DNA of 64,000 bases, taken from the NCBI GenBank assembly GCA_944323925.1, contig CALUUI010000004.1, forward strand, positions 1-64,000, given 5' to 3'. Below the pieces are notes generated by a model. That model was not told where the DNA came from. It saw only the letters and a program-made list of their open reading frames with translations, and made no database searches. Shown in pieces: positions 46,651-50,059 of the stretch (within the stretch, counting starts at the first letter, position 1; each line of letters starts with the position of its first letter). Source of the stretch: Candidatus Gastranaerophilales bacterium. Lineage in GTDB: Bacteria; Cyanobacteriota; Vampirovibrionia; Gastranaerophilales; Gastranaerophilaceae. A program made the position numbers and the translations under genes.

Positions 46651-48000
46651 TTATGCTGCTTGGTTAATATCATTTTGTGGCATTTGAGCCTTTAGGCTGT
46701 TCAAAGCATATTGGGCTGCAGCTCTAACTGTTTCATTATTATCACTGGCAATTAGGGCTTCATATATCGGTGTTAATTCTCTTGAATATTCATTCCTTTG
46801 TAAATAAATAAGAGCGTCAAGAGCTGAAAGTCTTATTGTATCATTGTCGCTTTTTAGAGAATTAACGATAGCTGAAAGTCCGGGTACATCTGTAATTGCT
46901 ACTGTTGTATTTGCTTCATCTTTAACTTCTTTTAAGAAAGCATTTGATAGTATAGCGAGAGTTGCAATTCCATATTCTTTATTTCGTTCAGCTAATTCAA
47001 GTTCTGAGAGCTTGTTTGCATAGTTTTTGTCTTCTTCAGAGATGTTGTAAGGAAGCACAATTTTGTCATCTGTTATGTGTTGTTGCTTTTGTGCATAATA
47101 TGCTTTGTAGTTTTCTATAATTTGATTTCTGATATTTGTTTGAGCTTCAGTTGGTCCTGAAAGGTTTGTTGTATCTTTATTTACAATATCAATTATGTTG
47201 TGAAATATTGGCTCAACTATGTAAGGATGAATAGTATCAGGGTTGTTATCTAAGCCAGCATCCATAATTTCTTTAAGTTGGAGTGCTTGAATATCGTAAT
47301 TTGTTGAATTTAAGTTTTCTGCGATTTCAATATAGTTTATTGCAGGAGAACCGTCTGATGGCGGAACAATTTCTACTTTAGAAATTTGTTTTGGAGCTGT
47401 TTCGTCAGGATCCTTTATTATTGGTGTATTTGTATTTTCTTGTAATTGTATATTTTGATTTTCCCCTGATTGGTCGGTTGTTTCATTATTCTGACTGTTG
47501 CGTAGCATTGTTTTCATTATATCCGGAGGTATAATTGTCAGAGCCGGTTGCTTATTATCAGTTGTTTGAATAGTAACATCTGAATCTTCTGTTGATTTAG
47601 CAGAAGTAGTTTCTTCTTTAGGCAATTCAGTATCTTCATTTTTTGTTTCTTTAGACACGGCATTTATTGTTGGTTTTAAATCTATATAAACAGGTGCAGG
47701 TACTGAAACGTGTTTCTTTTCAGGAATAACACTATCCGGTAATTCTACTACAGGCTTTGGTGATGGCAATTGGGGTTGGGGGTTTTGTATTTGTCTTTGT
47801 TTAAGCAACTCGGGGTATAGTTCCGCAGGAATTTGTTTTTCTTCGTATTTATAGATTTTTATGTTCGGTGGAGTCGCAGGCTGTGAAGTTTGATTTTGTT
47901 CTCCCACGTTTACTACCGGATTGTGAATATCTATTTTTACCCCATTATAATTTTGGGTTGTTAAATATGGATTTTTCCCTATTGCATCTGTTGTTGCCAT
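46651..48000 (-). CDS. proline-rich protein with C-terminal HEAT-like repeats
   Basis: 449 residues, no signal peptide. Residues 18-32 carry YNGVKIDIHNPVVNV, almost identical to a segment of the small protein encoded just upstream at 48058-48273. A long Pro/Glu/Thr/Gln-rich, probably unfolded stretch covers about 33-225. The C-terminal 220 residues are helical, with HEAT-like units such as GLSAIVNSLKSDNDTIRLSA and LDALIYLQRNEYSRELTPIY. It looks like a scaffold with a short linear docking motif. SD AAAGG. Not recognised beyond this. Confidence 0.75.
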   Translation of the reverse strand: MATTDAIGKNPYLTTQNYNGVKIDIHNPVVNVGEQNQTSQPATPPNIKIYKYEEKQIPAELYPELLKQRQIQNPQPQLPSPKPVVELPDSVIPEKKHVSVPAPVYIDLKPTINAVSKETKNEDTELPKEETTSAKSTEDSDVTIQTTDNKQPALTIIPPDIMKTMLRNSQNNETTDQSGENQNIQLQENTNTPIIKDPDETAPKQISKVEIVPPSDGSPAINYIEIAENLNSTNYDIQALQLKEIMDAGLDNNPDTIHPYIVEPIFHNIIDIVNKDTTNLSGPTEAQTNIRNQIIENYKAYYAQKQQHITDDKIVLPYNISEEDKNYANKLSELELAERNKEYGIATLAILSNAFLKEVKDEANTTVAITDVPGLSAIVNSLKSDNDTIRLSALDALIYLQRNEYSRELTPIYEALIASDNNETVRAAAQYALNSLKAQMPQNDINQAA

Positions 48001-48057
48001 TTTTTTTACCTTTCACACTTTTATATTATTATAAAGTAGTTTTTAATTATAAAATTG

Positions 48058-48273
48058 CTATTTTATTTCTTCTGCTTTTGTTTCTGTAACTTGAGGTTGT
48101 TGTGGCTCATAAATACTTGTTTGTGGAATGTCATAAATTGGTTGTGTGTATGCTGGTGGAATATTTACGGTTGGATTTTTAATATCGATTTTTACACCAT
48201 TGTAGCTTGCTGTTTCTCTGTTGCAGCATTGTGGACAATTACAATTTGGAATAATTGGTGAAATGTTTGGCAT
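48058..48273 (-). CDS. small Cys- and Pro-rich protein sharing the YNGVKIDI motif
   Basis: 71 residues. The N-terminus contains a cysteine cluster, CNCPQCC (residues 11-17), which could bind a metal. Residues 24-38 read YNGVKIDIKNPTVNI, matching YNGVKIDIHNPVVNV in the next gene. The rest is Pro/Gln/Tyr-rich and probably disordered. SD AAAGGA precedes the ATG. It lies 57 bases upstream of its partner gene and is probably cotranscribed with it. Function unknown. Confidence 0.7.
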   Translation of the reverse strand: MPNISPIIPNCNCPQCCNRETASYNGVKIDIKNPTVNIPPAYTQPIYDIPQTSIYEPQQPQVTETKAEEIK

Positions 48274-48375: not shown

Positions 48376-48975
48376 TTATAGTTTATTAATTACATCAAGT
48401 CCGTTGTAGTTAAATATTTTTTTAGTGTTTCCAAGTTTATATTCTTTGGCGAGTAATGCCCCTGCAATAGCTTCAAGTTGGGCAGCAGGAATCATGTTAC
48501 TTGGAAGATTATTAAAACCGTAATTAAGTTTTAGTGTAGATTGAAAGTACTTACAGTCTGCAGGACTTCGCTCTTTGTAGTTTGAATACAGATTGAGTTT
48601 TTGTCTTGTAAGATAGATTTCAAAGCGTTTTACGTCAATGTTGTTGCTTGCAAGTTTTGAAAAATAATCGCTGCCTCTTTGTGAAAAACGTTGCATCCAA
48701 TTATCTCTATTTAGAAAGTTTTGGTTTTCATGTATCCTTTGATAAGGTTTTGAAAGAACGCGCCACTTTCCATTAAGCATAGCATTATCCCAAGGTAATG
48801 ATACTAATATTATTGAATTTTTTATAGAAGGGAAATTATCAAAGAAAAAGACAATATCATTCATTGAAAATAATTTGTCGACGTATGATAACTTGCCGTT
48901 ATCTTCTAAAACAGCAACCCCGGACTCTATGGAAGAGTTTGCACCTATTGATAATCCAATATAATATTCTGTCAT
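48376..48975 (-). CDS. unknown protein, possibly RNase H-like fold (DUF429-like)
   Basis: 199 residues from ATG 48973-48975, which avoids overlap with motB; an ATG at 49002 would overlap it by 20 bases. The start YYIGLSIGANSSIESGVAVLEDNG has the beta-hairpin pattern of RNase H-fold proteins. SIILVSLPWDN, VKRFEIYLTRQKL and the late PAAQLEAIAGALLAKEY sit where DUF429 proteins have their conserved Asp/Glu elements. Several acidic positions differ, so activity is uncertain. No SD is visible; TATAAT lies six bases before the ATG, inside the end of motB. Confidence 0.6.
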   Translation of the reverse strand: MTEYYIGLSIGANSSIESGVAVLEDNGKLSYVDKLFSMNDIVFFFDNFPSIKNSIILVSLPWDNAMLNGKWRVLSKPYQRIHENQNFLNRDNWMQRFSQRGSDYFSKLASNNIDVKRFEIYLTRQKLNLYSNYKERSPADCKYFQSTLKLNYGFNNLPSNMIPAAQLEAIAGALLAKEYKLGNTKKIFNYNGLDVINKL

Positions 48976-48982
48976 AATTTGA

Positions 48983-50059
48983 TTATATACCAAAATCCTC
49001 ATCTGATGGTAATTTTACATCAAGCATTATAACAGGGACATCGTCTTTAGTTTTTAAATCATTATCTAAACTTTGGTAAACTGCTTGATTTTTTTTGATT
49101 GCTGATTTAGGAGGTAATTTATTATATTTGAGGTTTTTAGTTTCATTAATATCAGTATCAGAGTCGTTTGTTTTAAAGTTAAAATCGGTCATTTTAGCTG
49201 CATATTTAACATCATTAACAATTTTTTCTCTTTGTTTTTGGAGTTTAATTTGTTCTTCCATCGGAATTTTCTTTAAATCAATTCCTGGTTTTTCAGCTTC
49301 TTTATATTTATTTTTAAGTATCATTATTTCAATTCTTCTATTTTTTTCAGCATCTTGTTTAGAGTTGTTGTCAGCGACAGGTCTTGTATCAGCATAACCA
49401 ATAGCAGTAAAAAGCTGAGGGAAGAATTTAAATCTTTGTATCAGGTATCTTACGACAGAACAGGCTCTGGCAGCTGAAAGCTCCCAGTTAGATGGGTATT
49501 GTCTGGTAGAAATCGGTGCACTGTCAGTGTGACCTTCTACTCTCATATTGTGTAAAATGAATTTTTCACAGATTAGTACTCCTACTTTATCAAGCATTAA
49601 TTTAGCAGAAGGACTTAGATCTGCTGAAGCTGATTGAAATAAGTATCTGTCATCAAAGGTTAGTAGTAGTCCTCTTTCTGTTAATTTAGCAGAAACTCCA
49701 TCCAATTCATCATTTTTTACAAGTTCATTAATAATTTTTTCTATTTCTTGAAAAGAATTATCTTCATATTTGGCATTCATGTATTCAAACATAAGGCTAG
49801 GAATAAAAGAGTTTGCCATTGTTGATTCATCAAAGAATTTATCGCTGCTTTCTAAAATACTTTCTTGTCCGCTAAGTAGAGAATTAGCTTCAAAAGCTTT
49901 TCTTACAGCTTCTTCAAATTTTGTAAAATCAGCAATATCAACTTGAGAAAGTGCATATAAAACTACAAATGTAGCAAATAACAAGGTGATAAAATCGCCG
50001 TATGATACGAGCCATCGCTCAAGGTTTTCATGAGGTTCTTCTTTTTTCTTTTTTGCCAT
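48983..50059 (-). CDS. motB: flagellar motor stator protein MotB
   Basis: 358 residues. The ion-channel and peptidoglycan-anchoring stator subunit. One membrane span with the proton-binding aspartate in WLVSYGDFITLLFATFVVLYAL (about 17-38). The OmpA-like peptidoglycan-binding domain covers about 130-250 (VEGHTDSAPISTRQYPSNWE, LSAARACSVVRYL, NRRIEIMI). A Lys/Asp-rich tail of about 100 residues is longer than usual. The motA stop and motB start overlap (TAATG). MotB is distinguished from plain OmpA/Pal proteins by the span and its pairing with motA. Confidence 0.92.
   Translation of the reverse strand: MAKKKKEEPHENLERWLVSYGDFITLLFATFVVLYALSQVDIADFTKFEEAVRKAFEANSLLSGQESILESSDKFFDESTMANSFIPSLMFEYMNAKYEDNSFQEIEKIINELVKNDELDGVSAKLTERGLLLTFDDRYLFQSASADLSPSAKLMLDKVGVLICEKFILHNMRVEGHTDSAPISTRQYPSNWELSAARACSVVRYLIQRFKFFPQLFTAIGYADTRPVADNNSKQDAEKNRRIEIMILKNKYKEAEKPGIDLKKIPMEEQIKLQKQREKIVNDVKYAAKMTDFNFKTNDSDTDINETKNLKYNKLPPKSAIKKNQAVYQSLDNDLKTKDDVPVIMLDVKLPSDEDFGI

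Follow-up and report, generated by a model that had tools for sequence, protein, structure and literature searches.

A short N-terminal sequence shared by two adjacent genes, here called A and B, in a 64,000-nucleotide stretch of DNA from a Candidatus Gastranaerophilales bacterium (the window) is, in the reading toward which we cautiously lean, the docking element of a protein-assembly system of the Vampirovibrionia: a beta-strand tag that would tether both gene products, along with a third protein, C, to a common site. The tag is carried by two scaffold proteins, A and C, in nearly every close relative examined and thus marks an assembly system that has not been studied before. The features of A and B are collected in Table 1.

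Table 1. Positions in the window of genes A and B and of their parts
Feature	Description	Position	Strand	Evidence
Gene A	449 aa: tag, Pro/Gln-rich linker, HEAT domain	46651..48000	(-)	ORF, Pfam HEAT, AF2 all-alpha solenoid, order-wide orthologues
Tag of A	residues 18-32, YNGVKIDIHNPVVNV	47905..47949	(-)	ORF translation, genome pattern search, orthologue retention, codon comparison
Disordered Pro/Gln-rich linker of A	residues 33-220	47341..47904	(-)	AF2 mean pLDDT about 37-63
HEAT/ARM-type solenoid domain of A	residues about 221-440	46681..47340	(-)	AF2, Foldseek, subthreshold Pfam HEAT
Gene B	71 aa, tag-only, 57 bp upstream of A	48058..48273	(-)	ORF; adjoins A in 7/7 genus genomes
Tag of B	residues 24-38, YNGVKIDIKNPTVNI	48160..48204	(-)	ORF translation, genome pattern and profile search, codon comparison
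Second shared block of B	residues 45-56, PIYDIPQTSIYE	48106..48141	(-)	masked-profile test
Cys cluster of B	CNCPQCC, residues 11-17	48223..48243	(-)	genus alignment

The initial annotation had described a near-identical 15-residue motif in these adjacent genes, and both open reading frames and the motif are as it described them: YNGVKIDI(H/K)NP(V/T)VN(V/I) is common to A and B, with 12 of 15 residues identical. The core of the tag is [AG]-V-x-I-x-I-x-N-P-x-V. A degenerate DNA pattern for Y-x-G-V-x-I-x-I-x-N-P found three sites without a mismatch in the 1.94-Mb genome, those of A, B, and C, and no site with one mismatch. When a motif profile built from the three was run against the whole genome, it recovered them at E values of 1.1e-7 to 1.7e-6, with nothing else under an E value of 0.3 and the next candidate at 0.36. 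Given three perfect sites, no near misses, and this gap in the profile search, the tag stands far beyond chance and is almost private to three proteins. A site on contig C16 (YSGLNIGINDP) considered as a fourth tag has two mismatches and lies inside a YkgJ-type protein (PF03692 near the cutoff); we attribute it to chance.

The codons of the two tags differ mostly synonymously, which argues for conservation of the protein sequence rather than for a fresh repeat of the DNA: 7 of 14 are identical in this genome, 5 differ synonymously, and 2 differ nonsynonymously. A recent DNA duplication of the tag was rejected on this ground and because each of the seven genus genomes has both genes. In a test for gene conversion across seven related genomes, codon identity between the A and B tags of one genome was 53/98, whereas permuting the pairings gave an expectation of 46.7 (p = 0.045), a difference on which we base no claim of conversion. 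Within the genus, summed over all genome pairs, which are not independent of each other, there were 152 synonymous versus 10 nonsynonymous codon differences in the tag of A and 100 versus 30 in that of B. The direction is clear and points to purifying selection on the tag codons of both genes.

A and C do belong, in their C-terminal halves, to the HEAT-repeat proteins (PF02985/PF13646). The Pfam HEAT score of A in the window, 22.1 bits, is just below the cutoff of 23.5; an orthologue (L097) is above the cutoffs of both HEAT (28.6 versus 23.5) and HEAT_2 (35.6 versus 27.7). In an AlphaFold2 (AF2) model of A built on 59 sequences, residues 223 to 448 form helices only, with block pLDDT values of 91 to 98 up to residue 440. 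Foldseek searches with this model returned armadillo-repeat proteins, peptide binders included, as the best matches (E values of 1.3e-3 to 1e-2), and none was a close solved relative (best E value, 1.3e-3). The likeness to HEAT/ARM solenoid scaffolds covers the C-terminal domains of A and C, whereas nothing in Pfam or NCBIfam corresponds to the N-terminal half, tag plus linker. The view of the motif as a short, conserved stretch that lies in disordered flanks and behaves like a docking tag gains support from the same model, in which the tag is unfolded, with pLDDT values of about 45 to 55 versus above 90 for the HEAT domain, and lies outside that domain rather than in a larger folded one. The HEAT groove of A would be a conceivable receptor for the tag of the same chain; the model, at low confidence, leaves the tag undocked.

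Close relatives of A in named records come mostly from Candidatus Gastranaerophilales metagenome-assembled genomes. Among A orthologues with a complete N terminus, the tag is kept in 78 of 78, a count that leaves out two further orthologues cut by a contig end; its usual form is YNAVKID(I/V)xNPxV, and across carriers it starts 13 to 74 residues from the N terminus. A natural variant is found in five genomes (L140-L142, L145, L147), in which the tag of A has drifted uniformly to YNAVQINLDTPTLN. Protein C, encoded on contig C11, has 295 residues; it starts with MSGYLDNQYQVPNYSGVNIQIINPAVN and continues with a Pro/Tyr/Gln-rich linker and a C-terminal HEAT-like domain. This layout matches that of A, so that both have one architecture of N-terminal tag, long disordered linker, and C-terminal HEAT-type domain. 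When 22 C orthologues from six families were aligned, the tag residues V, I, I, and P proved invariant, with a constancy equal to that of any HEAT-domain position. In many genomes, YkgJ-type genes (CxxCxxCC, PF03692) divergently adjoin C (L119-L124, L264, L267); a further protein of this type, encoded in the present genome (L128:4614-5195), contains a weak stretch resembling the tag.

Tagged proteins were counted with a tag profile at an E value of ≤0.003 in an even sample of genomes of the class. Within f1, the family of this genome, 36 of the 37 other genomes have exactly two, A and C, a number that is by itself no proof of a physical complex; in the 37th (G023), the second tagged protein appears only at an E value of 0.01. 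In the present genome, three were counted (A, B, and C), and the same threshold gave one or more in 128 of the 137 genomes from across the order. Outside the order but within the class, A-like proteins of families f9 and f15 are tagged (SSAVNIQIIEP and SAVTINITNP), and in f14 a tag-only gene of 104 to 110 codons lies directly before a gene for a disordered tagged protein of 695 to 721 residues, both carrying PQSNGVNITIINPTTNV; no HEAT domain was detected in the larger protein. A phylum-wide sample gave a single marginal match (E value, 1.4e-3) among genomes outside the family, and there is no convincing case outside the class. Had the motif been confined to A and B, it might have been a recent local duplication, as the initial annotation had allowed; instead, it occurs order-wide in A, in C, and in other families of the class. 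The search of relatives that it had proposed shows carriers whose remaining parts are a HEAT domain, nothing, or a long disordered chain. An unlinked 114-residue tagged protein with a CC pair was also seen in G014 (L258:3676-4017), away from A. Several otherwise unlike proteins (L117:5267-5881, L224:4455-4766, L224:5401-5964) have an N-terminal FKG stretch, as in SNSFKGYNNG, LPFKGIVPLK, and QTFKGAEPVR, possibly a second shared tag.

A and B had been taken for unrelated proteins with nothing in common outside the motif except Pro/Gln-rich disorder, and here the results differ. Orthologues of B match a profile of A at E values of about 1e-9, but that profile contains two A sequences of the same genus, and we therefore made an independent test in which the tag was masked in B, the N-terminal profile came from A orthologues outside the genus, and 2,000 shuffles served for comparison. 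The masked B orthologues L130, L133, and L134 scored 12.1, 8.4, and 8.4 bits, above all 2,000 shuffles (maximum, 6.8); masked B of the window scored 5.6 bits, equaled by 6 of 2,000. The match lies in the second block of B, in which PIYDIPQTSIY corresponds to PYYNYPQAQLYDYPQ, a block that comes after the tag in orthologues of A from other genera. These scores point to a partial relative of A's N terminus, and B is best read as a shortened, tag-only form of it that lies just before A in each of the seven genomes examined from the genus.

The initial annotation also drew attention to the Cys cluster of B, as a hint of a possible metal or redox component. CxCPQCC is conserved in six of the seven B proteins of the genus, with the variant CCPCCNQQC in one. 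It is not peculiar to B; CPPC or CPPCPPC clusters occur in the linkers of many A orthologues from other genera, and the A proteins of this genus have no cluster of the CPPC type. It may therefore be that A and B split two combinations between them, tag-plus-scaffold in A and tag-plus-Cys in B. B, a Pro-rich protein, has no Pfam match at an E value of ≤1, including PF03692 (YkgJ-type CxxCxxCC), and neither the tag nor B falls under any Pfam, NCBIfam, or PADLOC family. Upstream of B, and likewise in L113, is a gene for a 208-residue protein (window positions 48376-49002, minus strand) whose best Pfam match, DUF4780, is below the cutoff (E value, 0.23).

How might the tag work? One can picture that the alternating V-x-I-x-I forms a beta strand, ended or capped by the Asn-Pro turn, and that a beta edge of a shared site serves as the pairing partner of this strand. 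Through flexible linkers, the HEAT domains of A and C, and likewise the Cys module of B, would be held in one assembly; B would either act as A's competitor at the site or supply its Cys module with no scaffold attached. No tool used here identified a binding partner of the tag. Candidates for the site are a small protein, E, which is probably membrane associated; another receptor; or the tags themselves. Gene order favors E, whereas double tags, genomes with one carrier, and a low-confidence model favor pairing of tag with tag; another receptor is favored by nothing in particular and compatible with everything. The preferred docking reading places the tag with the short linear docking motifs on disordered tethers, with which it shares a conserved short motif, the disordered tether, and varied carriers, although no recorded motif of its sequence was found with the tools used.

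That the tags of A, B, and C would pair with each other is possible, though we regard it as doubtful. V-x-I-x-I, NP, and V-x-V would form a beta arch, and the arches would stack as in HET-s/RHIM-type motifs, with B capping or seeding the stack. Consistent with this, eight A orthologues have two tags per chain, 25 to 29 residues apart, and AF2 places strands within both tags of one such orthologue (residues 19 to 22 and 41 to 51), a hint of tag-tag pairing in strands modeled at a pLDDT below 50. Two genomes (G062 and G067) have a single detectable tagged protein, with E and C undetected. Against it stand the low pLDDT of those strands and the sequence of the tag itself, with a nearly invariant Pro and K/D charges, features that are unusual in cross-beta cores. 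Beyond that, a more far-reaching version can be envisioned, which we hold to be unlikely: a widespread, previously undescribed scaffold assembly of the Vampirovibrionia built by a homotypic beta-pairing tag (G/A-V-x-I-x-I-x-N-P), in which A, C, and the small membrane-associated protein would sit in one conserved complex and tag-only proteins such as B would be recurrent soluble modulators of its assembly.

By its logic, the nearest known kind would be the amyloid signaling motif of adjacent genes (bacterial BASS 1-10; fungal HET-s, sigma, and PP; animal RHIM). Such motifs were discovered through adjacent gene pairs sharing a near-identical motif (PMC8086366), which is also an argument for pairing of the tags. 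The likeness extends to a short motif of about 15 to 40 residues in disordered flanks, near-identity between neighboring genes, a beta-strand pattern, and sometimes two copies per chain, and neighboring genes with a near-identical motif are what we see for A and B in seven genomes of the genus and for the f14 pair. However, a BASS is defined by an NLR-type receptor and an effector partner with a C-terminal motif (PMC12261475). In A, B, C, and E, Pfam found no NACHT or NB-ARC domain and none of an effector, and the tag is N terminal in all carriers; on this feature, the system falls outside BASS. Among the Pfam matches at an E value of ≤1, none was to an amyloid-motif family. The system differs further in the nearly invariant Pro and in being carried order-wide by one-copy scaffolds, whereas amyloid motifs are found on variable defense genes.

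The gene neighborhood brings in E, a protein of 140 to 240 residues with Gly/Ala-rich hydrophobic segments at both ends. If the tags of A and C bound E, both HEAT scaffolds, and B with them, would be recruited to the inner membrane, an arrangement that we consider distinctly unlikely in spite of the gene order. E directly follows C in the f1 loci read. Families f2, f3, and f4, as well as one genus of f1, have C, E, and A in this order without an intervening gene, an arrangement that points to an ancestral cluster, broken up afterward in most of f1, the present genome among them. Like A and C, E is present in 38 of 38 f1 genomes. On the other hand, E was not detected in the f9 and f14 genomes with tags and is, at that detection limit, no universal receptor; its hydropathy is marginal, with several members lacking any segment above the threshold; and in f9 and f15 an E-like protein follows C-like proteins that have no tag. 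These untagged C-like HEAT proteins (L276-L281, L284, L285) have a recurring IPPPxxLAPxxF instead, and a sigma-70 region 4 gene is close to several of them.

B could be a tolerated partial duplicate, and in the extreme case it would be an aging copy of A's N terminus without present function, the motif recording nothing but common descent. As a probable partial paralogue that adjoins A and is absent from most other genera, B would fit such a history, but we find it quite improbable: the tag, the Cys cluster, and the second block are intact in all seven members of the genus, the codon differences in its tag are mainly synonymous, and other lineages, too, have gained or kept tag-only genes beside large tagged ones. 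In L200 and in genus g6 (G011, L105:4933-5145), the gene directly preceding A is tag-only or encodes the tag plus a short tail; together with this genus and f14, at least four lineages have a tag-only gene beside a larger tagged one.

The least credible reading, and one we consider highly improbable, is that of an N-terminal secretion or sorting signal, for instance for export related to type II secretion or type IV pili: the N-terminal position of the tag and the secretin and T2SSE ATPase genes beside A in f7 would suit it, but A and C have no hydrophobic membrane or signal segment in a hydropathy scan, the variable distance of the tag from the start and its two copies per chain fit poorly, the gene context is not conserved, and we found no evidence for the sorting role that had been proposed beside docking. 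The other neighbors of A indeed vary by lineage, with fba and motAB in this genus and grpE-dnaJ in f9, and were therefore left aside as functional clues; for the same reason, we rejected a link to motility (motAB beside B) or to a type IV pilus or secretin. An anti-phage defense system was likewise rejected, as no PADLOC profile matched A, B, C, or E.

We conclude that one bacterial class has a genuine tag system, of the kind of short docking motifs on scaffolds, which is in no family library used here; among the open-access papers searched, none names both Gastranaerophilales and HEAT repeats. Gastranaerophilales are common gut bacteria, represented in the examined records by metagenome assemblies only, and have many lineage-specific proteins without an assigned role. 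For one group of these, a system is now defined, with two scaffold genes, a small partner gene, a core tag of 12 residues, and natural tag-only and double-tag variants. The tag is a ready peptide bait for a partner search, and the YNAVQINLDTPTLN variant would be useful for comparing partner specificity. If the tags pair with each other, they would be a new beta-pairing assembly motif outside immune signaling; if they bind E, the system would be a membrane scaffold specific to one class of nonphotosynthetic relatives of the cyanobacteria.
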